Positions 5,156 through 30,100 of a stretch of 31,492 nucleotides of DNA are shown one piece after another (position 1 is the first letter of the stretch; the number at the start of each line of letters is the position of its first letter). The translations under genes and the position numbers were made by a program. Origin of the DNA: a virus. The stretch lies in the IMG/VR virus record IMGVR_UViG_3300033146_001603, positions 1 through 31,492 of that record, one strand, 5' to 3'. Below the pieces are notes generated by a model. That model saw only the letters and a list, made by a program, of their open reading frames with translations. It ran no database searches and was not told the DNA's origin.

Positions 5156-5644
5156 ATGAAACAATTAAAACAAAAAGAATTAAAAGATTTACGTGAAAAA
5201 TTGTACGCAGAACAAAAAGGTATTTGTCCACTTTGTAAAACCAAAATTCGACTTGATGAAGCGGTTATAGATCATCAACATAAAACACTAAAAGAAGAAA
5301 TCGGTGCTGATGGCGCAGGGTTAGTTCGTGGCGTTTTGTGTCATAGATGTAATACTGTCGAAGGTGGAATGATTAACAAGTTCAGACGCTATGGAATATA
5401 CCTAAAGGACTATACCCAATTTTTAAGAAATTTAGCGGATTATTTGGATCAAGAACCTCTCCCCTATATTCATCCTACCGAAGCTCCAAAAATCCCCAAA
5501 TTAGGCAAACGTGATTTCAATAAATTATTAAAACTTTATAAAGCGAAATATCCAAGAAGAAAAAAAGGATTAACTTATCCGAAATCAGGTAAGCTTACTA
5601 AAAAATGGATAGATTTATTGGAAGAATTTAAGGAGGATTGGTGA
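5156..5644 (+). CDS. 49: Recombination endonuclease VII (Holliday junction resolvase)
   Basis: This 162-residue homologue of T4 gp49 (157 residues in T4) resolves branched DNA before packaging. The zinc cysteines are Cys24/Cys27 and Cys62/Cys65, the catalytic Asp39-His40 pair sits in VIDHQH, and Asn66 completes the His-Me active site (CHRCN). The C-terminal half is Lys-rich and helical, in keeping with the dimer-forming and DNA-binding part of the family. AAGGAG lies 6 bases before the ATG. A late promoter element directly precedes it, which fits the late need for this enzyme. Its TGA overlaps the LpxC start by one base. Confidence 0.92.
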   Translation: MKQLKQKELKDLREKLYAEQKGICPLCKTKIRLDEAVIDHQHKTLKEEIGADGAGLVRGVLCHRCNTVEGGMINKFRRYGIYLKDYTQFLRNLADYLDQEPLPYIHPTEAPKIPKLGKRDFNKLLKLYKAKYPRRKKGLTYPKSGKLTKKWIDLLEEFKEDW

Positions 5645-6483
5645 TGCTAATGAAACAACGAACATTAAAAGATGAATATAAATTTGAAGGGATTGGTCTT
5701 CATAGTGGACAACGATCTAAATTGATATTAAAACCAGCTGGTCCAAATCATGGAATTGTGTTTCATGCCAAACATTCTTTTGTTATAACAAAAATTCCAT
5801 ATTGTATTGAAAACGTTACTGATTCTAATTATTCAACTACTATTGGGAAAGATGGCGTATATGTTCAAACAATTGAACATTTAATGTCAGTTCTTTATGC
5901 GTTACATATTGATAATTTAGATATTTTCATTGAAGGTGATGAAGTTCCAGCTTTAGATGGTTCAGCTTTGGAATTCTGGATCGGGATCAATTATGTTGGT
6001 CTTGAATTCTATGAAAAATTCAATCAAGAGCCAATTAAAATAAAAGAGCCTTTGGAAGTCCATGATGGCAATTCATATATTAAAATCTCCCCCTGTAATC
6101 ATAAATTAGATATTCGATGTAGTATTGATTTTCCAAATACGGTAATTGGCAATCAAAACATTCAGATGATAATGGAAACAAGAAGTTTTATTACTGAAAT
6201 TATGTCTGCCAAAACGTTTGGATTTATGAAAGATTATGATGAATTGTTAATTAAAGGATTAGCTCAAGGTTCAAATCCACAGAACACAATTATTATTGGA
6301 AATCCTAATATCATCAATCCAAATGAGATGGTTCATTCTGATGATTTTGTTCGGCATAAAATATTAGATTTAATGGGTGATTTATCCTTGTTAGGGAGAC
6401 CATTATGTGGTTCAATTGATTCTTATTGTGCTGGTCATTCATTAAATCAAAAAATAGTGAAAAAGATACTTGACAATTGTTAA
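5644..6483 (+). CDS. lpxC: LpxC: UDP-3-O-acyl-N-acetylglucosamine deacetylase
   Basis: This is a full LpxC-family protein of 279 residues from the ATG at 5644, which has AGGAGG 7 bases upstream and overlaps the previous stop (TGATG). LpxC is the zinc enzyme that commits UDP-GlcNAc derivatives to lipid A synthesis in Gram-negative bacteria. Zinc ligands His79, His238 and Asp242, the general base Glu78, the catalytic His265, and Thr191-Phe192 all fall at the same numbers as in E. coli LpxC. The GIGLHSG start, IEHLMS, DGSA and VRHKILDLMGDL blocks are clear. The protein ends at residue 279, so it lacks the last 26 or so residues of the 305-residue E. coli enzyme, the region that holds the FtsH degradation signal. 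A role in altering host LPS or envelope synthesis during infection is inference. Confidence 0.93.
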   Translation: MLMKQRTLKDEYKFEGIGLHSGQRSKLILKPAGPNHGIVFHAKHSFVITKIPYCIENVTDSNYSTTIGKDGVYVQTIEHLMSVLYALHIDNLDIFIEGDEVPALDGSALEFWIGINYVGLEFYEKFNQEPIKIKEPLEVHDGNSYIKISPCNHKLDIRCSIDFPNTVIGNQNIQMIMETRSFITEIMSAKTFGFMKDYDELLIKGLAQGSNPQNTIIIGNPNIINPNEMVHSDDFVRHKILDLMGDLSLLGRPLCGSIDSYCAGHSLNQKIVKKILDNC

Positions 6484-6504: not shown

Positions 6505-6651
6505 ATGAAAAAGTCAATTCCAAAAATAAATAAATTAGCCGGACTTAGGTTGAAAACCAAAGCTCCGGTTACTTTTGTTGATAAAAAGAAATCAACGAAT
6601 AAATCTGCTTGTCGTGGAAAGGTAAAGAATGGCAACTTTGAGAAAGAATGA
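6505..6651 (+). CDS. Possible small basic leader protein (48 aa)
   Basis: A 48-codon ORF begins at the predicted transcription start of the promoter before it, so the message would be leaderless. No Shine-Dalgarno site is present. It is strongly basic (many Lys, one Cys) with no recognised motif, and overlaps the start of the topoisomerase gene by 23 bases. It may be a real small protein, or simply an open stretch in the 5' leader. The leader also contains a possible weak hairpin (CCGGA near 6539 with TCCGG near 6565). Confidence 0.35.
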   Translation: MKKSIPKINKLAGLRLKTKAPVTFVDKKKSTNKSACRGKVKNGNFEKE

Positions 6652-8500
6652 TATTCAAACACTTGGGGAATTAGAATATGTTCTCAAGCGACCTGGAATT
6701 TATATTGGTTCAATCAAGGAAGAAATGGTTGAAAAATATATGTATGAAGGTGCTAAGATGGTTAAAAAAACTGTACCTTTTATCCCTGGTTTAATTAAAA
6801 TTATTGAAGAAGTTATTGATAATTCAATTGATGAATCCATTGAAACGAATTTTGTCTTTGCTAATAAAATCAATGTCACTTATGATAATGGTATTATTAC
6901 AGTTAAAGATAATGGTCGTGGTTTGCCAATTGCCAAAGATAAATTAACCGGAAAAAATGTAGTTGAAAATATCTTTACAGAACTTCGTACTGGTTCAAAT
7001 TTTGATGATGAAAAACGAGCCGAAAAAGAAAAGAAGGGGATGAATGGCGTTGGTGTTTCCCTTACTAATATTTTCAGTGATTGGCTTCAAGTTAAAACCG
7101 CCAATGGTGCTCGACAATATATCCAAAAATTTGAATTGGGACCAGTTAAACGTCTTCCTGCTAAAATAACAGAATCTGATAATAATTTTACTGAAGTCAC
7201 ATTTAAACCGAATTATGCTTATTTTGAGCCTTCAGAAGAATTCATGAAAGTTTTACCTGATTTAATTTATCGGGTATTACGAAATGCTGCTTTCTGTTTT
7301 CCCGAAATCAATTTCAAGTTTAATGGTAAAAAAATTGGTGGTTCCAATTTAAGACAATTCATGTTAACAATTCATCCTATCAATGAATTCACCGAAAATG
7401 AAAAAGTACGTCTTGGTGTATTCTGTTCAGATGATGGCTTTCAACATCTAAGCTTTGTGAATGGTTTGGATACCTCTCGCGCAGGAACACATATTGATTA
7501 TGTAACAAATACTATCGTTAATAAACTTAGAGAATATATTAAGAAAAAATATAAATTGGAAGTTAAACCAGCCGATATTCGAAATAAATTATTCATTTTG
7601 TTGTCAGTACGGATACCTGCGCCTGATTTTGATGGTCAAACTAAAGAACGATTGATTACTCCAAATTCTTCATATAATGATCGAATGATTAGTATATTCA
7701 GTGATAAGTTTTTCAAGCAATTGATTAAGAATGAAGAAATTATTGAACCAATAGTTGAATCATATCGTTTGAAAAAACAAGTTGAAGAAAATATTAACTT
7801 GAAGAAAATCAGCCAACAAAAACAAACCAAAATTCGTGTTGAAAAATATCTCCCAGCGACCAAACATCGTAAATGGTTAGTATTAACTGAAGGTGATTCT
7901 GCCAAAGGTTCAATATCAGCGGTATTAGGTCGGGAGGAATACAGTTATTTTCCCCTCAAAGGGAAACCACTCAATGCTTATGAAGCAAAACCAAGCGTAA
8001 TTGTTAAAAATGCTGAATTTCAGAATATCGTTAAAATAACAGGAATGCGTTTAGATAAAGATATTCAAAATCAACTTAGATATGAGAATATTTTATTTGC
8101 GACAGATCAAGATGCTGATGGAAGTCACATTAAAGCTTTATTATTAGCATATTTTGGGAGATTTGGTATTTCGTTAATCAAAGCCAAGAAGATTCATTTT
8201 CTCAGAACACCATTGATAGCAATTAAGAAAAAGGGAAAGATTGTAGATTATTTTTTCGATTTTGAAGATTATAATAAAAGTAACACAAAAGGTGGAGATG
8301 TTTTATACTATAAAGGGTTGGGAACTTGGGATGCGAAAGATCTCAAAGGAATTATTAAAAAAGATGGAATCAATAATTTCATTTTAACATTCACTTGGGA
8401 TGATGAGTCAAGTCAATCTTTGAAAAATTGGATTGGTTCAGATGCCGATCTCAGAAAACCTTTATTGCGAGGCAAAACATTTAGTTTTGATGGTGTTTGA
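6629..8500 (+). CDS. 39: Type II DNA topoisomerase large subunit (gp39/gp60 type)
   Basis: This 623-residue ATPase/toprim subunit corresponds to T4 gp39 plus gp60 in one chain; T4 itself splits it. The GHKL ATP site is complete: the EEVIDNSID box around 60-68, DNGRG at 94-98 and GMNGVGVS at 137-144, with the QTK lysine of the transducer at 337-339. The toprim half has EGDSAKGS (421-428), PLKGKPLN (442-449) and DQDADGSH (493-500), the Mg-binding acidic cluster. It works with the gp52-type subunit at 13074 to relieve supercoils during replication. GGAAAGG precedes the ATG. The stop overlaps the next gene by one base (TGATG). Confidence 0.96.
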   Translation: MATLRKNDIQTLGELEYVLKRPGIYIGSIKEEMVEKYMYEGAKMVKKTVPFIPGLIKIIEEVIDNSIDESIETNFVFANKINVTYDNGIITVKDNGRGLPIAKDKLTGKNVVENIFTELRTGSNFDDEKRAEKEKKGMNGVGVSLTNIFSDWLQVKTANGARQYIQKFELGPVKRLPAKITESDNNFTEVTFKPNYAYFEPSEEFMKVLPDLIYRVLRNAAFCFPEINFKFNGKKIGGSNLRQFMLTIHPINEFTENEKVRLGVFCSDDGFQHLSFVNGLDTSRAGTHIDYVTNTIVNKLREYIKKKYKLEVKPADIRNKLFILLSVRIPAPDFDGQTKERLITPNSSYNDRMISIFSDKFFKQLIKNEEIIEPIVESYRLKKQVEENINLKKISQQKQTKIRVEKYLPATKHRKWLVLTEGDSAKGSISAVLGREEYSYFPLKGKPLNAYEAKPSVIVKNAEFQNIVKITGMRLDKDIQNQLRYENILFATDQDADGSHIKALLLAYFGRFGISLIKAKKIHFLRTPLIAIKKKGKIVDYFFDFEDYNKSNTKGGDVLYYKGLGTWDAKDLKGIIKKDGINNFILTFTWDDESSQSLKNWIGSDADLRKPLLRGKTFSFDGV

Positions 8501-9447
8501 TGTTAGATGATAATCAAAAGGAAGATTTATTATTTGAATTGATGACTTCACAGAAAGATACTTCTGTAACATCTAATATGATACAAACACGTCAAGATGA
8601 TTATAATGAGGATGTTTGTTGGCAATATAATATTAGGGTTAATAATTTAGAGGATGATTTAAAGAAAGCATTTCTCACCAAAGAAGAAGTTTCGAATTTA
8701 AGAACTTCGGATTTCACTTTTCGATTATTAGAAACCAAACGTGAGCAGAATGAAGCGGTGGAATTTATTAAACGGCATGAGTGGTTGGGTACAATTTCAC
8801 AATTCACAACTCATTGGTTTGGTGCTTATTATAATGATATTTTAAGTGGTATTATTTTAATGAATCAACCTAATGCTTTTAGTAAGATGTTGGGAGAAGC
8901 CACGCCACAACTTGAACGTTTAGTTTCTAGGGGTGCTTGTATTTCTTGGTCTCCAAAAAATTTAGCTTCGAATTTTTTAATGTGGTGTATCAAATATATG
9001 GTACAAAATACACAATATCGTTTATTCACAGCATATTCTGATCCTGAAGCAAAAGAATTAGGCACAATATATCAAGCATGTAATTGGTATTATTTGGGTC
9101 AAACATTTGGAGCCAACAGAAGATATTATTCACCATATACCGGAAAATTGGTTTCTGATCGTACATTTAGATGTGTATCATTTTATCGAAAATATGCGAA
9201 AGAACTCGGAATTCGCTGGGAGAAAAATTGGGTTGACAAACAGAAAATTTTATGGGATAATATGCCTAAAGATGTAGAAGATAAATTACGTTTGATGTCA
9301 AAAACCAAACAACAAGAATCTGATTATATTGAACCACCATTAAAACACAAATATGCTTATGTTCTTGGTGATAATAAAAAGGAAACAAAACGATTGAAAA
9401 AACAAATGGCATTAATCAAAACATACCCTTATCCCAAAGAACGTTAA
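8500..9447 (+). CDS. Mom-like GNAT acyltransferase 1 (putative DNA modification)
   Basis: This 315-residue protein has a GNAT-like core in its middle part. Residues about 75-205 show an HEWLG entry, strands around WFGAYYNDILSG, a LERLVS-RGACISWSPKN segment, and the hallmark YSDPEAKELGTIYQACNWYYLG (179-200). That block closely resembles the S-D-G/P...GxIYQAxNWxYxG block of the phage Mu Mom family, which converts adenine to N6-carbamoylmethyladenine. An N-terminal extension of about 70 residues and a Lys-rich tail of about 80 residues are extra. It starts one base inside the topoisomerase stop (ATG at 8500) and overlaps the methylase stop-start by one base. It may be an acyltransferase acting on DNA bases; the exact chemistry is not known. 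Confidence 0.72.
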   Translation: MLDDNQKEDLLFELMTSQKDTSVTSNMIQTRQDDYNEDVCWQYNIRVNNLEDDLKKAFLTKEEVSNLRTSDFTFRLLETKREQNEAVEFIKRHEWLGTISQFTTHWFGAYYNDILSGIILMNQPNAFSKMLGEATPQLERLVSRGACISWSPKNLASNFLMWCIKYMVQNTQYRLFTAYSDPEAKELGTIYQACNWYYLGQTFGANRRYYSPYTGKLVSDRTFRCVSFYRKYAKELGIRWEKNWVDKQKILWDNMPKDVEDKLRLMSKTKQQESDYIEPPLKHKYAYVLGDNKKETKRLKKQMALIKTYPYPKER

Positions 9448-10322
9448 TGATAACTTTTTTTAGATATTCTGGTACTAAAGCAAATCCATTATATATTGAT
9501 AAAATTAATGAATTTGTGAATTCATGTACTAATGAAATTTATGTTGAGCCGTTTGTGGGTTCGGGTGGAATTTTCTTTAATTTAGAAAAATCATTCCAAC
9601 ATTATATTTTAAGTGATCTTGATTCAAATATTATTAGAATCTATAAATCATTTAAGGAAATGAAATCATATTCTCAATATATTGAAATTTATACAGAAGT
9701 CTTTAATAAATTTGGAACATTATTAATTGATAATCGATATTGTGACCAAAAACAAGCAGAAGAATTAAAACGTTCATATTATGAATTTAGAGCTTGGTTC
9801 AATCAAAATTATTGGAAAACCGATACATTTGAAGAAGGAGTTTATTTACATTTATTGACAAATTCATGTTTGAATTCATTCTTGAGATTTGGACCAAATG
9901 GGATGAATCAATCATATGGGTTAAGGTGTTATCTATTATCTCAAACCAATTTTAATGTTATCAATTCCAAATTACAAAAATGTGATTTAATTTGTTCGGA
10001 TTATCAAAGCATTATTAATGATAATCCAACAGCTTTGTTTTTTCTCGATCCACCATATCAATCTCAAGATAGTTCATATACTCCCTTTGATGAAAATGAT
10101 TTAAAAGAATTTATTAAAAAAATTAAACCAATAGAATTTATCTATACAGATATTTTGAATAATATAAATTCAACATTAAAACATAAATTATATCTGAGAA
10201 ATATTAATAGCACTTCACCAAATCGAAAAGAAACCGAAACAAAAAATGAAGAATTCTTATTCACTTATAAGGAATTCCCAAAGAATGGTTTATTATCATT
10301 CATAGAGGATAACGAAATATGA
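9447..10322 (+). CDS. Dam-type DNA adenine N6-methyltransferase
   Basis: This 291-residue protein is a D12-class (Dam-like) adenine methylase. It begins with FFRYSGTKANPL, the counterpart of the Dam YxGGK segment, has the AdoMet-binding motif I EPFVGSGG at 34-41, a middle target-recognition region, and catalytic motif IV DPPY at 201-204. It would methylate adenine N6, or a modified form of it, in phage DNA. It overlaps its neighbours on both sides (TAATG at the start, ATGA at the end), so it is translationally coupled to the Mom-like gene before and the second methylase-fold gene after. Confidence 0.9.
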   Translation: MITFFRYSGTKANPLYIDKINEFVNSCTNEIYVEPFVGSGGIFFNLEKSFQHYILSDLDSNIIRIYKSFKEMKSYSQYIEIYTEVFNKFGTLLIDNRYCDQKQAEELKRSYYEFRAWFNQNYWKTDTFEEGVYLHLLTNSCLNSFLRFGPNGMNQSYGLRCYLLSQTNFNVINSKLQKCDLICSDYQSIINDNPTALFFLDPPYQSQDSSYTPFDENDLKEFIKKIKPIEFIYTDILNNINSTLKHKLYLRNINSTSPNRKETETKNEEFLFTYKEFPKNGLLSFIEDNEI

Positions 10323-11380
10323 AAAAAATATTAACTGTTGAAGATTTCAAAAATCATGAAATTCAATATGGTGTAACCGTTAATGGGAGAAAATATCCCT
10401 ACTATGTTCAAATGGATGATGAAACATACAACACACTCATTGAACTAATGACCACCAAACCAAATTTGGATAAAGTAAAATATGAGATAAGACAATTACA
10501 TAATGGGAATAACAAAACCTCTTTGGTAGAGAAATATTTCTTCTTGGATTTAATGTATAAAGTTGAAACAAAAGTTTCAAAAAAATCAATTGAAAAAACA
10601 CTCCAAAATAAAGATTTGATGTCTTATATGGTTGCGAAAATTTTAGTTAAACGGAAGTTGTTTTATGATAGACTAATGATTAATAATTTCCTCAAATGTT
10701 TTAGTATGTCAACTTTTGAATTTGGGGGAAAACCACCAAATTATCCAATTAAATCAGTAAAGGAAGTATTGATAAAATATAACATCAATGATAATTATTA
10801 TGATTATTCCTGCGGGTGGGGAAATCGGTTATTGGGTTCTTTAGTTGAAAAAGTTAATTATCATGGTACTGATCCAAATTATTTATTGACAGAAAGATTA
10901 AAAGAATTAGCTGATACATATGAGGAAGTGAATACATTAAAATCAAGTGTTGATATACGGACACAAGGTTCGGAGATATTCATTCCTGAATGGGAAAATA
11001 AAATGGGGATGGCATTTAGTTCTCCACCATATTATGATGTAGAAGATTACAAAATTGGTGATCAATCTGTTAAAGCAAACACCTCATATGATGAATGGTT
11101 GAATACCTATTGGTCAGGCACTGTTAAAAACATTAAAAAGTATTTGGTTGAGAATGGTTTCTTCCTTTTGAATATGAAGAACATGAAAAAATATAATCTA
11201 TTGGATGATATGTCTGAAATCATATTGAATAATGGGTTTAATCTGTTTGGGAAAGAATTGCTGGTTAATATCACTCGAAAAGTTGATGAAGATAATAATG
11301 AGGATATTGTGGTGTTTATAGATGAACATTCAGATAATCCTCAAACGAATAATTCAAGTTTGGAGTCATTTTTTGATTGA
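10319..11380 (+). CDS. SPPYY-motif methyltransferase-fold protein with clamp-binding-like C-terminus
   Basis: This 353-residue protein has an N-terminal helical region (about 1-130) and a Rossmann methylase core. The core includes YDYSCGWGNRLLGS (161-174) as motif I, HGTDPN (182-187) as motif II, and SSPPYYDVEDY (234-244) as motif IV. The S-P-P-Y form is typical of N4-cytosine or related beta-class enzymes, but the target base cannot be inferred. The last ten residues, NNSSLESFFD, resemble the DNA polymerase tail in this window (SLEDFFS) and the RB69 polymerase clamp-binding tail. It overlaps the Dam-type gene by 4 bases and the PLP gene start by 8. It probably takes part in DNA modification with its neighbours. 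Confidence 0.8.
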   Translation: MKKILTVEDFKNHEIQYGVTVNGRKYPYYVQMDDETYNTLIELMTTKPNLDKVKYEIRQLHNGNNKTSLVEKYFFLDLMYKVETKVSKKSIEKTLQNKDLMSYMVAKILVKRKLFYDRLMINNFLKCFSMSTFEFGGKPPNYPIKSVKEVLIKYNINDNYYDYSCGWGNRLLGSLVEKVNYHGTDPNYLLTERLKELADTYEEVNTLKSSVDIRTQGSEIFIPEWENKMGMAFSSPPYYDVEDYKIGDQSVKANTSYDEWLNTYWSGTVKNIKKYLVENGFFLLNMKNMKKYNLLDDMSEIILNNGFNLFGKELLVNITRKVDEDNNEDIVVFIDEHSDNPQTNNSSLESFFD

Positions 11381-12263
11381 TGTAAATTGGATATCGCCTA
11401 TTGAAGAATATGATATATTGTATAAACGAGATGATTTATTTTCTCCATTTGAAAATGGGGTTAATGGTGGTAAAGCTCGGCAAGCAATATCATTGATATA
11501 TAATAATCTTGATCATATACGTGAGAATTGTAATAATACAATAATTACTGCGACAAATATAGATTCCCCTCAAGGAATAATCATTTCCACGGTAGCAAAA
11601 CATTTTGGTGTTCGTTCAAAAGTTGCGTTTGGTTATGTTGGAAGGGATAAAGACAAGCTTTGTAAAAATCATTTAGTTCAAAAAACAATTGCTGCGGGTG
11701 GGGAAATTGAAATCATAGCAAATGCGCCTTATACCGCAGCTGTTAATAAAGCGTTACGTGAAGTTGTATCTGCCCGAAAATATTTCCCGATTAAATTTGG
11801 TATAAATGCTTCTGATAATGCTGATAGTATTTTTGGTGTTATTGAAAATCAAGTTCAAAATATACCAAAAGATTTAGATTTATTAATAATTCCTGTGGGT
11901 AGTGGTTTAATATTTAGTGGTATTTTGCGTGGATTATTAAAATATAACTTGACACCAAAAAGAATTATTGGTATACTGAGTGGAATGGATAGTTCAAAAG
12001 ATATTGAAAAGAATCTTACATCATATGGGATAAAGCGTAATTGTCAAAATAGTTCTATATTGGATTTTATGGGAAGTGAAACCAAATTAGAATATGAAAT
12101 TCACAAAAGTGATTTAAAATATCATCAGAAAAAATATATTGATGAGCCATTTAGTTTTGATCCTATTTATGAAGTAAAAGCACTTTTGTGGTATAAAAAA
12201 AACATAAAAGAAACAGGCAAACATTTATTATGGGTTGTTGGCAATCAAAGATTTATGTATTAG
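11373..12263 (+). CDS. Fold-type II PLP-dependent enzyme (ACC deaminase / cysteine desulfhydrase-like)
   Basis: This 296-residue protein resembles the tryptophan-synthase-beta superfamily of pyridoxal-phosphate enzymes, closest in pattern to ACC deaminase and D-cysteine desulfhydrase. It has KRDDLFSP (18-25), the PLP lysine Lys34 in NGGKARQA, an SPQG turn (65-68), and the phosphate-binding loop PVGSGLIFSG (174-183). I chose the TTG start at 11373, with GGAG 7 bases upstream; the ATG at 11322 would force a 59-base overlap and add 17 residues with no match to the fold. Its position inside the Mom/methylase cluster suggests that it makes or processes an amino-acid-derived group for base modification. 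That is inference; it could instead be an unrelated metabolic gene. Confidence 0.82.
   Translation: MIDVNWISPIEEYDILYKRDDLFSPFENGVNGGKARQAISLIYNNLDHIRENCNNTIITATNIDSPQGIIISTVAKHFGVRSKVAFGYVGRDKDKLCKNHLVQKTIAAGGEIEIIANAPYTAAVNKALREVVSARKYFPIKFGINASDNADSIFGVIENQVQNIPKDLDLLIIPVGSGLIFSGILRGLLKYNLTPKRIIGILSGMDSSKDIEKNLTSYGIKRNCQNSSILDFMGSETKLEYEIHKSDLKYHQKKYIDEPFSFDPIYEVKALLWYKKNIKETGKHLLWVVGNQRFMY
11949..11977 (+). promoter_or_regulatory. Internal sigma70-type promoter inside the PLP gene
   Basis: TTGACA (11949-11954), a 17-base spacer and TATACT (11972-11977) match the pattern of the intergenic promoters in this phage exactly. It lies within coding sequence about 300 bases before the second Mom-like gene and could provide extra transcripts of that gene and the topoisomerase medium subunit. 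Confidence 0.5.
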
Positions 12264-12272
12264 GATTATTAT

Positions 12273-13061
12273 ATGAAACAAATTATTGGCAAAAAATATT
12301 ATGTAAAAGAAACAACTCCCGAATTAGCTAGGAAAATCATAAAGAAATTTCATTATTCGAAAAAATGTGTTTCTAATTCAAACGTACATTTGGGTGTATT
12401 TAGAATAGATGATCATAATCTGATTGGAGCACTTCAATTGGGTCCAAGTATGAATGGATACAAAACAACATCAAAATTTCATACATCTGAAAAATGTTTA
12501 GAATTAAATAGAATGGCTATTGATGAGTCTGAACCAAGAAACACCGAATCACAAGTTTTGGCATTGATGTTTAAATGGTTGAAGAAATATACTGATATAG
12601 ATTTTCTAATTTCATTTAGTGATGGAAAAGAAGACAATGTTGGATATATTTATCAAGCAACGAATTGGATATATGTTGGTTATTTGATTAGTGATAGTTT
12701 TTGGGATTTAGATGGTAAAATTTTACATAGTGTTACGGTTTGGCATCAATTTAAAGAAAAAAAAGATATAGTTAAAGAAAATTCATTAAATGTTTTTTTG
12801 GGGGTTGAAACTATTCCGAAAACTACTAATGAATATTTATGTGAAGTTTTTGATAATGTAAGTGTTATTACTTCAAAGCAGCATATCTATCTATATCCAA
12901 TAAAAAAACGAATTAAATTTAAATTAGAAAAACAAAAATATCCTAAAATGGATACAGAAATTCCTATATTAAAAAGAAAAATTATTAAAGAAAATGGTAA
13001 AATATTGAAACAACCAAAACATAAAGTTTATTCTAATGAACCACTAAAACCATGTATTTAA
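12273..13061 (+). CDS. Mom family adenine-modification acyltransferase 2
   Basis: This 262-residue protein is the clearest Mom homologue of the window. It has the FHYSKKCVSN entry near 26-35, the HLGVF...LIGALQLGP strands (39-58), LELNRMAIDESEPRNTES (76-93) with the conserved R-N-(T/S)-ES, and SFSDGKEDNVGYIYQATNWIYVG (114-136), followed by a DGKILHS segment. Mu Mom installs the N6-carbamoylmethyl group on adenine and protects DNA from restriction. A basic C-terminal tail of about 90 residues may bind DNA. It follows the PLP gene by 9 bases and lies directly before the topoisomerase medium subunit. Two Mom-type genes in one cluster may act on different bases or in sequence. Confidence 0.85.
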   Translation: MKQIIGKKYYVKETTPELARKIIKKFHYSKKCVSNSNVHLGVFRIDDHNLIGALQLGPSMNGYKTTSKFHTSEKCLELNRMAIDESEPRNTESQVLALMFKWLKKYTDIDFLISFSDGKEDNVGYIYQATNWIYVGYLISDSFWDLDGKILHSVTVWHQFKEKKDIVKENSLNVFLGVETIPKTTNEYLCEVFDNVSVITSKQHIYLYPIKKRIKFKLEKQKYPKMDTEIPILKRKIIKENGKILKQPKHKVYSNEPLKPCI

Positions 13062-13073
13062 TTGGAGATATAA

Positions 13074-14396
13074 ATGACAGAAATTAAAGTACAAGAATTT
13101 TTCAAAACCGAATTTCCAAATTTTGCGGTGTATAACTTGTATCGTATGGTTGCCTCTTATGTTGATGGTTTGAAACCCTCTCAACGTAAAATTGTTTATA
13201 CGGTAATGGAAAACAATATTCAAAAACCAATTAAAGTAAGTCAATTAGCAGCAAAAACATCAGAATTTACACAATATCTACATGGGGAAGTTAATCTCCA
13301 AGGTGTTATTGTGAATATGGTACAAGATTTCACTGGAACAAATAATATGAATGTTTTGTATCCTGAATCTTCATTTGGAAATAGATGTTTTCCACAAGCA
13401 GCTGCTGCTCGATATATTTTCACTCGTAAAGCTGATTGTTTTGATAAAATTTATAATAAACTTGATACATCATTATTACCTCAACAAACATTTGAAGGTG
13501 ATGATATTGAGCCAAAATATTTCATTCCTGTTTTACCAATGATTTTAATAAATGGTTCTGAAGGAATTGGTTCTGGTTGGGCACAAAAGATTCTCCCAAG
13601 AAATCCAAAAGATGTTAAAAGGGAGATTATTCAATATCTTCATGGGAAACCAAATCGACAAATCAAACCATGGTTCAAAGATTTTGAAGGGGAAGTGAAA
13701 CATATTGAGAAAAATACTTGGGAATTATGGGGAGTTTTATTTCAAAAGAATTTGACTACATTTGAAATTACAGAAATTCCACCAAATATTTCTTTAGATA
13801 GATTTACTGCGAATTTGATCAAATTAGAAGATTCGGGGGAGATTGTTTCTTTCACAGATTATTCTGATCCTGGTACTAATAATTTTCATTTTACGATCAA
13901 GACTAAAAGGGATTTTACCAAGAAGAAGAGTTTTGAGCAAATCATGAAGAAGTTTCATTTGATCAAACGGGTTACTGAAAATTTTACTTGTATTGATGAA
14001 AATAATAAGGTTCGAGAATTTCAAAGTGGTGTTCAAATACTTGGTAATTATTGCGATCTAAGATTAACCTACTACCAGCATAGAAAAGAAAAGATCGTTC
14101 ACGAGAAGGAATATCTGATAGATTCCTTACGCAACAGACAACGATTTATTGAACACATTATAAAAAACAAATTAAAAATTAAAGATTTGAAGAAATCCGA
14201 AATTATAACCTACCTAAAAGATAATAATTTCGCACTGAGAGAAAGAACATATAATTATCTTTTGAATATGCCTATCTATACAATCAGTAAAGATCAATTC
14301 GAAAAGATTAAAAAAGAATTGGTTCAAATCAGTCTGGAATTAGATCTCATTAAATCCAAAACCATAACTCAAATGTGGTTGGAAGATTTAAAATAA
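13074..14396 (+). CDS. 52: Type II DNA topoisomerase medium subunit (gp52)
   Basis: This 440-residue GyrA-like cleavage subunit is almost the length of T4 gp52 (442). The start shows VASYVDGLKPSQRKIVY (26-42), then the winged-helix region and QAAAARYIFTR, in which Tyr114 is the catalytic tyrosine that bonds to DNA. The IGSGWAQKILPRNP segment (about 164-179) is the family's conserved turn into the tower. It pairs with the large subunit at 6629. It has a GGAG site 8 bases before the ATG and ends the unit; the next gene has its own promoter. Confidence 0.95.
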   Translation: MTEIKVQEFFKTEFPNFAVYNLYRMVASYVDGLKPSQRKIVYTVMENNIQKPIKVSQLAAKTSEFTQYLHGEVNLQGVIVNMVQDFTGTNNMNVLYPESSFGNRCFPQAAAARYIFTRKADCFDKIYNKLDTSLLPQQTFEGDDIEPKYFIPVLPMILINGSEGIGSGWAQKILPRNPKDVKREIIQYLHGKPNRQIKPWFKDFEGEVKHIEKNTWELWGVLFQKNLTTFEITEIPPNISLDRFTANLIKLEDSGEIVSFTDYSDPGTNNFHFTIKTKRDFTKKKSFEQIMKKFHLIKRVTENFTCIDENNKVREFQSGVQILGNYCDLRLTYYQHRKEKIVHEKEYLIDSLRNRQRFIEHIIKNKLKIKDLKKSEIITYLKDNNFALRERTYNYLLNMPIYTISKDQFEKIKKELVQISLELDLIKSKTITQMWLEDLK

Positions 14397-23902: not shown

Positions 23903-24580
23903 ATGAATTTTTCAGAAACAGAACTTACGATTCTTAGCAATTTTGCTAAAATCAATCCTTCACAAATTATCAAACCTACTGGATTTGGTGCGAAAGAACC
24001 ATCTGCGTCAATTGTTGGTGTTTATGATTTTGAGGAATCTTATGATTTTGAACCGTTTGGAATTTATGAAGTGCCAATGTTCCTCCAAGCACTCGAAGCA
24101 TTTGATAAACCAAAAATTGATGTAAAACCTGATCGTGTTGTGATTAAAGAGGGTTCATCAAAGATTCAATTTTTCACAACTCCCCTTGATTTGATCAAAA
24201 ATTCTGAAGTACCAAATATTGCGCCCAAGTTTGATAAATTGGATTGTGAATTGGATTTTGATCTTCCTGCCGATAAACTTGCGACAATTTTCAAAACTGC
24301 CTCGGTTTTCAAAGCCAAATATCTATTTCTTGAATCAGATTCAAAAGGTGTTCGTTTAACTGTTTCATCTGATACTCCTGGTTCGAGTGCCAATTCATTT
24401 GAAATTATGATTCGTGATAATGTTCGTTCAAATGAACTTGCCAAAACAGTTTTGAAAATTCCTTTTGCGGAATTGCGTATTATTCCTGGTGATTATTCAA
24501 TTAAAGCATCCGCTAAGAAAATTTCTAAATGGGCTTGTTTTAATGATGTAACTTATTATGTTGGATGTATGATTGACTAG
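23903..24580 (+). CDS. 45: Sliding clamp (gp45)
   Basis: This 225-residue protein matches T4 gp45 (228 residues) in length, layout and neighbours. It opens with a helix like T4's (FSETELTILSNFAKINPSQIIK), alternates strands typical of the clamp fold, and ends with the PGDYSIKASAKKISKWA segment, where T4 has PGNYKLLLWAKGKQGAVKF. As a trimer it would ring DNA, hold the polymerase and, in T4, also activate late transcription with gp33/gp55. The gp44 and gp62 genes follow within 11 bases and with an overlap. Confidence 0.93.
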   Translation: MNFSETELTILSNFAKINPSQIIKPTGFGAKEPSASIVGVYDFEESYDFEPFGIYEVPMFLQALEAFDKPKIDVKPDRVVIKEGSSKIQFFTTPLDLIKNSEVPNIAPKFDKLDCELDFDLPADKLATIFKTASVFKAKYLFLESDSKGVRLTVSSDTPGSSANSFEIMIRDNVRSNELAKTVLKIPFAELRIIPGDYSIKASAKKISKWACFNDVTYYVGCMID

Positions 24581-24590
24581 GAGTAATTGA

Positions 24591-25559
24591 ATGTCTAAAC
24601 AAGATTCATTATGGGTTGAAAAGTATCGACCTAAAACTATCGCTGATGTTGTTTCACCTGCTTCAACACAGAAGCTACTTGAAACTATTGTTAAAACGAA
24701 AGAATTAACCAATATCATGTTTTATGGTTCTGCGGGTTTGGGTAAGACAGCCACGGCTCGTTCAATTGTTAATGATTTAGGCGCAGAAGAATGTTATATT
24801 AACGGTTCTTTGGAAACTTCGGTTGATGTAATTCGTAATCGTGTTATTCAATTTGCTATGACTCATTCTGTTGCGGGTTTACTTATGGATGAAAAACCCG
24901 CCCCAAAAATTGTTATTATTGATGAGTGCGAGCGTCTTTCTCCTCAAGCTCAAGATTCATTAAAAGTGGTTCTTGAGGAAGCGAGTTCAAATTGTCGATT
25001 TATTTTTTGTACTAACAATCTTCAAAAAATCATTGATCCGCTTCAATCCCGATGTAAATTAGTTTCATTTAATTATGGTTCTGATCAATCCAAAGATATC
25101 ATGTTAAAGTATTTCAAACGTATTTGTTTTATCTTGGATAAAGAAGGTCATAAATTAGATAAACAGGGAAAAGGAATTATTGCTGAATTTGTTCAACAAT
25201 TCTTTCCTGATTTTCGGAAAATGATCAATGAGCTTCAAGGGTATCTTATGGAGAAAGATACGATTGGATTGGATTTATTACGTGCTGGTGATTCCTCTCA
25301 AACACATGATATGATCAATTTAATTAAAGCAAAGCAATTCAACAAAGTTGCTGCTTTATGTTCGGAGATCGATTCGAATTCATTTTATTCTTCATTTTAT
25401 GCGGAGATTAAGAAATTTATCAATCCCGCTTCAATACCGGATGTAGTATTTATTTTGCGAGATGGTATGCATACCCATGCTTTGGCTGTTGATCAAGAAA
25501 TTAATTTGATAGCTGTATGTGTAGAGCTTATGTCCGCCCTTGATGGGAAATGGAAATAA
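24591..25559 (+). CDS. 44: Clamp loader large subunit, AAA+ ATPase (gp44)
   Basis: This 322-residue AAA+ protein (T4 gp44: 319 residues) starts with LWVEKYRPKTIADVV, the RFC-family box. It has Walker A GSAGLGKT at 46-53, Walker B IIDECERL (109-116, DExx box) and the SRC arginine-finger motif at 153-155. Four copies with one gp62 load the clamp onto DNA. It follows the clamp by 10 bases; its TAA overlaps the small subunit start. Confidence 0.96.
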   Translation: MSKQDSLWVEKYRPKTIADVVSPASTQKLLETIVKTKELTNIMFYGSAGLGKTATARSIVNDLGAEECYINGSLETSVDVIRNRVIQFAMTHSVAGLLMDEKPAPKIVIIDECERLSPQAQDSLKVVLEEASSNCRFIFCTNNLQKIIDPLQSRCKLVSFNYGSDQSKDIMLKYFKRICFILDKEGHKLDKQGKGIIAEFVQQFFPDFRKMINELQGYLMEKDTIGLDLLRAGDSSQTHDMINLIKAKQFNKVAALCSEIDSNSFYSSFYAEIKKFINPASIPDVVFILRDGMHTHALAVDQEINLIAVCVELMSALDGKWK

Positions 25560-25948
25560 TGGCTCAATTATTTGACTACATAAAACGACTCACAAACAAA
25601 GAACTGATTGACGAAACTCAAGATGTATTTGAAAAAGATTATTCTCCATATATGATCAATCGGTTTTTTGCTTGTGATCGTAAATTGTTAATGCTTGCTA
25701 AAGAAATGAATCGAGCAGGTATCACCAAACAAATGCATTTTGATTTTATGGATACAATTGTTCCAAAATCAAATAAATTCATCAAATATAACCTAAAGAA
25801 AACCAAAGCTGATAAAGATATTAAATATATTTGTGATTTTTATCAAGTCAATATTGAAATCGCCAAAAGCTATTATAAAATATTGAAACGAAATAAAGAT
25901 GAAATGAAACAAATTCGTGATTATTATGAGAAAAGAGGTACAAAATGA
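25559..25948 (+). CDS. 62: Clamp loader small subunit (gp62)
   Basis: The 129-residue protein starts at the ATG overlapping the gp44 stop (TAATG). It is shorter than T4 gp62 (187). The middle HFDFMDTIVPKSNKFIKY and the later FYQVNIEIAKSYYKIL match T4 (HFNYLMAAVPRGKRYGKW and RYQVNTNDAINYKSIL). It lacks most of the C-terminal Lys/Leu-rich part of the T4 protein. Gene order 45-44-62 is the T4 order. Confidence 0.88.
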   Translation: MAQLFDYIKRLTNKELIDETQDVFEKDYSPYMINRFFACDRKLLMLAKEMNRAGITKQMHFDFMDTIVPKSNKFIKYNLKKTKADKDIKYICDFYQVNIEIAKSYYKILKRNKDEMKQIRDYYEKRGTK

Positions 25949-27511: not shown

Positions 27512-30100
27512 ATGTCAAAATCTCTTTTATCAATCGAAATGGTAAATAAAAATACCATATATCACCGTTATCTGGAAAATGGATCAAGAGAAGAAGAATA
27601 TATTGAATTCAAACCATTTTGTGGTGTCATAACTGATAAAAAATCATCCATTAAAACATTATATAATAAGCCATTGGAATTAAGGAAATTTGATAATATT
27701 TCTGAATTCAAAAAATGGACTCGTGAGAATGAAGATTATATAGATATTTATGGTAATATTCGACCTGAATATATGTTTTTATCATCAGTTTATCGTGAAG
27801 AAATCCCGTTACAATGGGATGATATGCGGATTGATAACTTCGATATTGAAGTTGTACGTGAAGATGGATTTCCAGATGCGCAGATTGCTGATTGGCCCGT
27901 GACAGCTATCACAATCCAAGATGTTATTAAAAAAACATATACAACATTTGGATTCAAAAATTATGTTAATCATGATCAAAAAAGAATAAATTATATTCAT
28001 TGTGATGATGAAAAAGATTTATTGAAAAAATATATTGCTTATTGTGTAGAACGGAGACCTGACATTTTAACAGGTTGGAATATTGTTAATTTCGATATTC
28101 CTTATATGGTAAATAGAATCAAAAAAGTTCTCGGTAAATCTTGGGCTAATAAAATTAGTCCAATTGGGAAACTAAGAGCTCGAGAATATAAAGATACTTT
28201 TGAAAATGAAATTAACACATATGATATTTTAGGTACAGTCATCTATGATTATATGGAGCTTTATTCGAAATTTCAATTTGAACCAAGAGATGGAAAATCA
28301 TTAGAAGTTATCGCTCAAGCAGAATTGGGAAAAGGAAAATTAGATTATAAAAAAGGTGATAATCGCTCATTAACCGAACTTTATCATAATGATTTTCAAA
28401 CCTATATTGATTATAATATAAGAGATACCGAATTGGTTGGATTAATCGATGATAAACGAGGTTACCTGAGACTCGCTATCAATATGACATATATGGCAAA
28501 ATGCTTGTTCAGTGACGTGTTTGGAACTGTCGGTATTTGGGATGCTTACCTATATAATATCCTATTGAATAAAAAAATATTGTGTCCACCAAGAAAAACA
28601 AATATCAAATCCTCATTCCCAGGCGGGTGGGTTGAAAAACCACATAAAGGTCTAAATGGCTGGAATATGGTATTTGATATTGCTTCCTCATATCCAAATT
28701 CAATTATCAGTTATAATATTTCAACCGAAACCATAATTGAATTTAGTTCTTTGCCGAAAGAATTACAAAACTTAGCAGATTCAATTCGACCATTTTATTC
28801 TCAAGGTGAATCTACATGGTTAATCAATGATAAAATATATGATGTAGATTGGCTGGAGGAAAACGCCAAAGAATTATTAGAAAAATACGATTTGTGTATG
28901 ACTCCATGGGGTGAATTTTTCCGGAGAAATGAAATTGGATTTATCCCTGAAGTAGTCGATAAGATATTCAAATCAAGAAAAAAAGTTAAAGGGGAAATGA
29001 AAACAATTGATTTTAGTTCAAATGAATATGCTGCGTTAAACGCTCAACAAATGGCGTTCAAAACACTCATGAATTCATTATATGGAGCTATGTCAAATAT
29101 TTGGTTTAGGTATTTTGATATTAGAATGGCAGGTTCTATTACCTGCGCAGGACAAGCATCTGTTAAAGGTTCTTCAAAATACATTCAAGATAATATCAAG
29201 GGTATGAAGAACTTTTATACTGATACTGATTCAATCTTTTTAGATTTACAACCATTCATTGATGCTCGATTTAAAAATAAAGAACATACTTTTGTTGATG
29301 AACATGATTTCTGTATGAAATTATCGACACAATTAGTTGAACCAAAATTAACTGAATTCTTTGATCGATTAACTAAAGGTTTGAATACATTCACAAATAC
29401 GTTAACAATGGAATCAGAAGTTTTAGCTGATGCGTGGATAAGTGTTGAAAAGAAAAAGTATTCAATGCGGATTATCAATGATGAGGGTGAAGAATTTTTC
29501 AATCGTGAAACCCTAGAATTAGGTAAATGGAATTTTGATAAAACTGAATTTGAGGTTGGCAAAGTCAAATTGAAAACTAAAGGTCTTTCTTTGATTCAAT
29601 CCACAACTCCACAATTTTCAAGATCAAAATTAAAACAATCTCTTGAATTGATTTTTCAATATAGAGATCAGGAAGTCATTAAAGATAAATTTAAGGAGTG
29701 GAAAGATGAATTTATGACTTTACCTTTTGAAGAAATTTCAATGCCAAGAGGGGTTACTATTTTTAATAAATATGTTGAGAATCCTGCGGGTGCTCAAGCT
29801 CATGTTAGATCGGCAATTGCGTTTAATAAAGCTTTGATTGATTTGAAATTAGATAAGACATTTCAAAAGATAAATCAAGGTGATAAAATTCGTTATGCCT
29901 ATATTGAAGTTCCAAATATTTTTGGTATTGAAGTTATGGCTGTAAAAGATAAGATGCCTGAACTTATAAATAACAATATTAAAGTAAATTGGGATATTCA
30001 ATGGCAAAAATGTTTCACCTCACAATTAGAGAAAATATTTGAAACAATCGGTTGGAATATATCTGAAGATGATGTATCTTTAGAAGACTTTTTTAGTTAG
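27512..30100 (+). CDS. 43: DNA polymerase, family B with 3'-5' exonuclease (gp43)
   Basis: This 862-residue replicative polymerase corresponds to T4 gp43 (898). Exonuclease motifs are intact: FDIEVV (Asp111/Glu113), the FDIPY region (Asp195) and YNIRDTE (Asp305). Polymerase motif A is FDIASSYPNSI (Asp389), motif B KTLMNSLYG (517-525), motif C YTDTDS (569-574), and VEKKKYS (645-651) is the KxY box. The C-terminus, VSLEDFFS, is the expected clamp-binding tail (RB69 ends SLFDMFDF). AGGAG precedes the ATG. A promoter embedded in a terminator drives it independently of the clamp operon. Confidence 0.97.
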   Translation: MSKSLLSIEMVNKNTIYHRYLENGSREEEYIEFKPFCGVITDKKSSIKTLYNKPLELRKFDNISEFKKWTRENEDYIDIYGNIRPEYMFLSSVYREEIPLQWDDMRIDNFDIEVVREDGFPDAQIADWPVTAITIQDVIKKTYTTFGFKNYVNHDQKRINYIHCDDEKDLLKKYIAYCVERRPDILTGWNIVNFDIPYMVNRIKKVLGKSWANKISPIGKLRAREYKDTFENEINTYDILGTVIYDYMELYSKFQFEPRDGKSLEVIAQAELGKGKLDYKKGDNRSLTELYHNDFQTYIDYNIRDTELVGLIDDKRGYLRLAINMTYMAKCLFSDVFGTVGIWDAYLYNILLNKKILCPPRKTNIKSSFPGGWVEKPHKGLNGWNMVFDIASSYPNSIISYNISTETIIEFSSLPKELQNLADSIRPFYSQGESTWLINDKIYDVDWLEENAKELLEKYDLCMTPWGEFFRRNEIGFIPEVVDKIFKSRKKVKGEMKTIDFSSNEYAALNAQQMAFKTLMNSLYGAMSNIWFRYFDIRMAGSITCAGQASVKGSSKYIQDNIKGMKNFYTDTDSIFLDLQPFIDARFKNKEHTFVDEHDFCMKLSTQLVEPKLTEFFDRLTKGLNTFTNTLTMESEVLADAWISVEKKKYSMRIINDEGEEFFNRETLELGKWNFDKTEFEVGKVKLKTKGLSLIQSTTPQFSRSKLKQSLELIFQYRDQEVIKDKFKEWKDEFMTLPFEEISMPRGVTIFNKYVENPAGAQAHVRSAIAFNKALIDLKLDKTFQKINQGDKIRYAYIEVPNIFGIEVMAVKDKMPELINNNIKVNWDIQWQKCFTSQLEKIFETIGWNISEDDVSLEDFFS

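Follow-up and report, generated by a model that had tools for sequence, protein, structure and literature searches.

A candidate sliding-clamp-binding tail common to a viral DNA methyltransferase and the DNA polymerase of the same genome

The methyltransferase locus and the replication genes

The window, i.e., the whole stretch of 31,492 nucleotides analyzed here (IMG/VR record IMGVR_UViG_3300033146_001603), contains a gene for a putative DNA amino-methyltransferase whose last residues resemble those of the DNA polymerase encoded some 16 kb downstream (Table 1). The same genome codes for a gp45-type sliding clamp and for both subunits of a gp44/gp62-type clamp loader. The position of the clamp gene had been correctly anticipated in the original prediction, and the loader genes lie downstream of it. 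The clamp aligns with the gp45 proteins of T4 and of cyanophages, but without their last six to eight residues past the final strand (24480-24580). Its structural model is poor (mean pLDDT of 60.5), too low for an analysis of the binding pocket, and a PDB sequence search with this protein gave only chance matches to catalases.

The methylase gene is one of several genes found between two topoisomerase subunit genes (6629-14396), the others being two coding for Mom-like proteins, one for a D12-type methylase, and one for a PLP-dependent enzyme. In the contig carrying the closest homolog of the methylase (IMGVR_UViG_3300033146_000616, hereafter G001), the tailed methylase stands alone between the topoisomerase genes, and in another related contig (G002) the interval contains an unrelated ORF of 255 aa. 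The interval thus looks like a hotspot of DNA-modification genes, and the genes it contains in the window possibly constitute an unknown hypermodification pathway. The terminus of the D12 methylase (NGLLSFIEDNEI) bears a faint likeness to the tail of T4 gp55 (PSLDFLYEAND). An LpxC gene, coding for an enzyme of lipid A biosynthesis (5638-6483, Pfam 2e-84), is also found in the window, and G001 too has LpxC, adjoining the topoisomerase genes.

Table 1. Positions of the genes and features discussed in the text (numbering of the window)
Feature	Position	Strand	Evidence or remark
Mom-like DNA modification protein 1	8497..9447	+	Pfam Mom, 1.1e-13; no clamp tail
D12/Dam-type adenine methyltransferase	9447..10322	+	Pfam MethyltransfD12, 8.9e-20; end GLLSFIEDNEI, not a clear clamp tail
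DNA amino-methyltransferase, N6/N4-type, 353 aa	10319..11380	+	PHROG 498 'DNA methyltransferase', 4.9e-6; candidate clamp client
Presumed SAM-binding motif I DYSCGWG, residues 162-168	10802..10822	+	Conservation in 30 homologs
Catalytic motif IV SSPPYY, residues 234-239	11018..11035	+	Conservation in 30 homologs
Linker, residues 336-346, after last beta strand	11324..11356	+	pLDDT drop; differs in G001; absent in most homologs
Sliding-clamp-binding-type tail SLESFFD, residues 347-353	11357..11377	+	Identical in G001; also on gp43 (function-blind scans)
PLP-dependent enzyme, ACC-deaminase/threonine-dehydratase-like	11322-12263		Possible true start TTG 11373
Mom-like DNA modification protein 2	12273..13061	+	Pfam Mom, 6.3e-46; no clamp tail
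gp45-type sliding clamp, 225 aa	23903-24580	+	PHROG 223 'DNA polymerase processivity factor', 4.8e-34
gp44-type clamp loader	24591..25559	+	PHROG 168, 1.1e-80
gp62-type clamp loader subunit	25550..25948	+	PHROG 225, 1.4e-24; Pfam Phage_clamp_A, 4.7e-7
gp43-type family B DNA polymerase, 862 aa	27512..30100	+	PHROG 262, 3.7e-207
Polymerase tail SLEDFFS	30077..30097	+	Counterpart of the gp43 tails of T4, RB69, and cyanophages

The methylase and its C-terminus

Among the 30 aligned members of the methylase family, 22 match Pfam PF01555 (N6_N4_Mtase). The methylase of the window itself reaches the threshold of no Pfam family, and it is therefore best regarded as a divergent relative of PF01555 rather than a member. 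N6/N4 amino-methyltransferases are recognized by a motif I together with a (S/D/N)PP(Y/F/W) motif, and the protein has DYSCGWG, presumably the SAM-binding motif I, and SSPPYY. Within the first of these, D162, S164, and G166 are invariant in the 30 homologs and C165, W167, and G168 nearly so; within the second, P236, P237, and Y238 are invariant and S235 nearly so. Judging from motif and family, the target would be N6-adenine or N4-cytosine. The AlphaFold2 model has a confident methyltransferase fold (mean pLDDT of 92.4), whose Foldseek matches are class I SAM methyltransferases, Trm11 and Bud23 among them. The last strand of the model spans residues 328-335. Beyond it, confidence is lost: the pLDDT, about 91 up to there, is 63 and then 49 over residues 336-353, where a short helix (348-352) is the only predicted element. 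Such a profile is expected of an exposed linear motif on a flexible linker. Burial of the tail would have spoken against a docking role, and the model instead predicts it to be disordered and exposed.

The methylase terminates in QTNNSSLESFFD-TGA, its last ten residues being NNSSLESFFD, and the polymerase in SEDDVSLEDFFS-TAG, its last residues being DDVSLEDFFS. Both ends are as described in the original prediction, as is the RB69 tail to which they were compared (RB69 gp43 ends in KKASLFDMFDF). T4 gp43 terminates in KASLDFLFG and T4 gp55 in SPSLDFLYEAND (PSLDFLYEAND). A hydrophobic/acidic consensus is common to SLESFFD, SLEDFFS, STLDDFFS, ASLDFLFG, PSLDFLYE, and ASLFDMFDF, which are tails of the gp43/gp55/gp33 type, and SLESFFD occupies the very C-terminus of the methylase (its last seven residues), the sliding-clamp-binding motifs (SCBM) of T4-type phages lying there or very close to it. 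The polymerase tail is kept as [LM]EDFF in all five related contigs. Exactly two ORFs of the window have an S-L-E-x-F-F terminus. From composition, one would expect 2.4e-4 such ends among the 64 ORFs of at least 60 aa, and none was found in 2000 shuffles of these ORFs. Nor does S-L-E-x-F-F occur internally in the 72,043 aa of ORFs of the window and five related contigs.

The methylase has a single close homolog, that of G001, which comes from the same sample series and is 56% identical; profile scans of the viral contigs for further close relatives of the polymerase or of the methylase gave none. The G001 protein ends in NTSSLESFFD, so that the last eight residues are identical in the two proteins. 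Three of the eight tail codons differ, every change being silent, and the linker that precedes the tail diverges. Given the low expectation in the window, this conservation, and the recurrence of the tail on other modification enzymes (described below), a fortuitous resemblance between the hydrophobic ends of methylase and polymerase has a negligible probability, and we regard it as refuted. There is also no support for the methylase gene having recently acquired a copy of the polymerase 3′ end, since the Leu and Glu codons are TTG GAG in one and TTA GAA in the other.

Another explanation invokes selection on nucleotides. The TTGGAG within the tail codons could be a ribosome-binding site for the overlapping gene of the PLP-dependent enzyme, the amino acids being a by-product; indeed, GGAG (11362-11365) sits 7 bases ahead of the possible TTG start in the frame of that enzyme. 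However, G001 keeps the eight amino acids through silent changes, has GGAA instead of GGAG, and has a different gene downstream, after a gap. Hence, a ribosome-binding site in the window cannot explain the conservation of the tail, and we reject this origin as highly improbable.

Conservation of the tail in homologs, on which the original prediction could be checked, is found in the one close homolog but not in most of the distant ones. The distant relatives usually stop just past the last strand (KKKDM, KKKN, or QK), and those without the tail include proteins of Herelleviridae, Bacteroides, and Vibrio phages. Four of them (L240, L241, L244, and L251) lack it although their contigs encode gp45. 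Because distant homologs usually end after the last strand, the methylase tail is best seen as a lineage-specific addition, as is common for linear motifs. In one genome in which TAG is read as Q (L013), the methylase bears a long unrelated extension. Among 26 relatives without a gp43-type tail, six have LF or LW as their last residues (e.g., KQTTLF), namely those of L037, L191 (two paralogs), L187, L202, and L207. Such ends are expected in 1.2% of proteins (binomial probability of 5e-7 if relatedness is ignored), and they are possibly a motif of the type that binds the host beta clamp, in phages without gp45.

Distribution of the tail among viral proteins

Codon patterns of the tail, blind to function, were run over 2.9 million viral contigs, and the matching proteins were assigned to families with Pfam and PHROGs. 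The patterns are codon-restricted, so that the lists are incomplete and the counts are lower bounds, and many of the polymerase matches are near-duplicates. SLEDFF-x-stop is found at no fewer than 120 loci, and the matches listed include 115 gp43, three DNA α-glucosyltransferases, one GNAT, and one truncated ORF. LESFFD-stop is found at a minimum of 21 loci, corresponding to 10 gp43 (most of which end in KLREESSLESFFD), the G001 methylase, one TET-associated glycosyltransferase (TAGT), and nine chance ORFs of at most 10 aa. SLESFF-x-stop is found at at least 16 loci, corresponding to eight gp43, four Tet/JBP dioxygenases, the G001 methylase, one HNH protein beside gp43, and two chance ORFs. 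The non-polymerase full-length ORFs are thus mainly DNA-modification enzymes. Since the scans returned gp43 proteins with the same end, the exact tail of the methylase (SSLESFFD) is elsewhere a polymerase tail. The HNH-like ORF (147 aa, locus L273 of contig G019) directly follows gp43, and its end, GCEPEKQGSLESFFK, resembles the polymerase C-terminus; it may result from the insertion of a homing endonuclease at the 3′ end of the polymerase gene.

A second survey covered 134 loci (1078 ORFs) retrieved solely through the polymerase tail, so that the other genes were unselected. The tail is present on 119 of 125 gp43, on 19 of 27 ORFs of modification families, and on a single one of 926 other ORFs (Fisher p of about 1e-32, a value inflated because relatives are counted separately and because the family representatives were chosen from tailed proteins, the tails being removed for classification). 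The counts themselves do not depend on this p-value. The tailed enzymes are Tet/JBP, TAGT, C5-cytosine methylases, an N6/N4 methylase, and GNATs; for the latter, we know of no proven role on DNA. The N6/N4 methylase, a relative of that of the window, ends in ALDSFFG, the polymerase there ending in SLEDFFG (L101). A further N6/N4 methylase, adjoining gp43, ends in TLENLFGE (L254). The C5-cytosine methylases end in SLENFL (L132 and L133) or SLEAFL (L077). Polymerase and client tails of one contig resemble each other without always being identical: TLEDFFG is found with SLEDFFG (G016 and G020), SLESFFA with SLESFFG (G017), and TLEAFFQ with SLESFFA and SLEDFFE (G015). The latter pair belongs to an operon beside a T4-type replisome (L284, 728-3694), which codes for a Tet/JBP protein (SSLESFFA), an unknown protein of 298 aa (HALEGFM), and a GNAT (SLEDFFE), and is a candidate for a new hypermodification pathway.

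Named isolates mostly agree with this pattern. In phage C48C1 the polymerase ends in ATLEDFFG, the D12 methylase directly downstream in STLDAFFG, and the Tet/JBP protein in SLEEFFV. In Stenotrophomonas phage DLP_6 the corresponding ends are ATLDSFFA for the polymerase, ATLGDFFV for Tet/JBP, and DLSSFFN for TAGT. The Tet/JBP protein of Caulobacter phage Cr30 ends without a clear tail. Among the Tet/JBP-type proteins of isolates, the one of C48C1 is a Pfam Tet_JBP match annotated as hypothetical; its counterparts in DLP_6, Cr30, and S-CBWM1 (L291, L292, and L293), identified by tblastn with a Tet_JBP query, carry the annotation 'SNF2 DNA repair protein'.

A putative coupling of DNA modification to the sliding clamp

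In T4, tails of this kind, with divergent linkers, allow client proteins to bind gp45 at a hydrophobic patch of its C face (PMC2988020 and PMC7892883), and the motifs of gp43, gp33, and gp55 are interchangeable (PMC2988020). The clamp-binding character of the methylase tail, as originally predicted, is strongly supported by sequence: its conservation in G001, its predicted exposure, its identity with gp43 tails, and its recurrence. Binding to gp45, the pocket concerned, the timing of methylation, and the base methylated are inferences; coupling of modification to the replication fork would be a further step. SLESFFD is very probably a gp43-type motif by which the methylase docks on gp45, and which would direct it to nascent DNA. 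The tail, on its linker of about 11 residues, would insert into the hydrophobic pocket on the C face of the trimeric gp45 clamp and keep the enzyme attached to clamps that remain on newly copied DNA, so that nascent phage DNA would be methylated (N6-A or N4-C) as it is replicated or soon afterwards.

Could the tail bind another partner, for example some other component of the replisome or the beta clamp of the host? Two neighboring methyltransferase genes in contig G011 (L282, 9189-10645) both end in LEGFFE, and no match to gp43 or gp45 is found in this fragment of 31 kb, which fits such a partner. Yet viral contigs are fragments, so that a missing gp45 proves nothing. Moreover, the C-terminal tail of gp43 is an established gp45 ligand in T4 and RB69 (PMC2988020), every contig with a tailed modification enzyme and gp43 was T4-type, and the tail has no Q, a residue of the bacterial beta-clamp motif. 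A partner other than gp45 is therefore improbable.

Docking on gp45 might also serve purposes other than protection from restriction, such as confinement to replicating foci, competition for clamps, strand marking, or the timing of transcription. gp45 has three pockets and also a role in transcription (PMC2988020), and in T4 the balance between α- and β-glucosylation is set mostly by expression, more than by clamp binding (PMC13216743). On the other hand, the slot of the methylase gene holds Mom-, D12-, and PLP-type modification genes, which fits genome protection, and the other tailed enzymes are hypermodification enzymes, so that we consider these other purposes rather unlikely. Because expression sets the share of α-glucosylation in T4 (PMC13216743), fork coupling may affect the timing or place of modification and not its total amount; by analogy, clamp binding of the methylase need not control the modification level.

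The tailed modification enzymes suggest that such viruses mark their DNA while copying it or just after. In phages of the T4 superfamily, the polymerase tail probably is one interchangeable clamp-docking tag placed on many unrelated modification enzymes, which would couple modification to the replisome through the clamp. Its carriers would be N6/N4, D12, and C5 methylases, Tet/JBP, α- and TET-associated glycosyltransferases, and possibly GNATs. If this is true, the tag could serve in searches for new DNA-modification enzymes and help to assign unknown ones, such as the GNATs, to these pathways, and it bears on the question of how phages mark their genomes fast enough against restriction.

Clamp binding is already known for one phage DNA-modification enzyme, the α-glucosyltransferase of T4, which is reported to bind gp45 (PMC6024577), as confirmed by pull-down in 2026 (PMC13216743). 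In the open-licence literature, text searches gave neither a link between a phage methylase and the clamp, nor a polymerase-identical tail on a methyltransferase, nor the recurrence of such a tail on several unrelated modification families; an earlier description may exist elsewhere. The transferable seven-residue motif would turn the α-glucosyltransferase, seemingly a single case in that literature, into a general hypothesis. The methylase resembles T4-type SCBM clients in its extreme C-terminal [S/T]-L-x-x-[F/L/M]-[F/L/Y], in its flexible and divergent linker, and in belonging to a phage with gp45, gp44, and gp62. It differs from them in being a DNA methyltransferase, with no role as polymerase or in transcription. 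SPPYF-type amino-methyltransferases of Herelleviridae, of Bacteroides and Vibrio phages, and of MAG contigs are of the same family but have no gp43-type tail. Like the T4 α-glucosyltransferase (Sommer 2004, cited in PMC6024577; PMC13216743), the methylase may be a phage enzyme that modifies DNA after replication and makes use of the clamp. Unlike it, the T4 enzyme has an unrelated fold and chemistry and ends in EQFDIITK; as it lacks a gp43-type C-terminus, it docks by other means. The T4 β-glucosyltransferase does not bind gp45. A more distant analogy is the mammalian DNMT1, a DNA methyltransferase brought to new DNA by a motif that binds the clamp PCNA (PMC9690074), but there enzyme, motif, and clamp are all unrelated to those of the window, and the function is cellular maintenance methylation.
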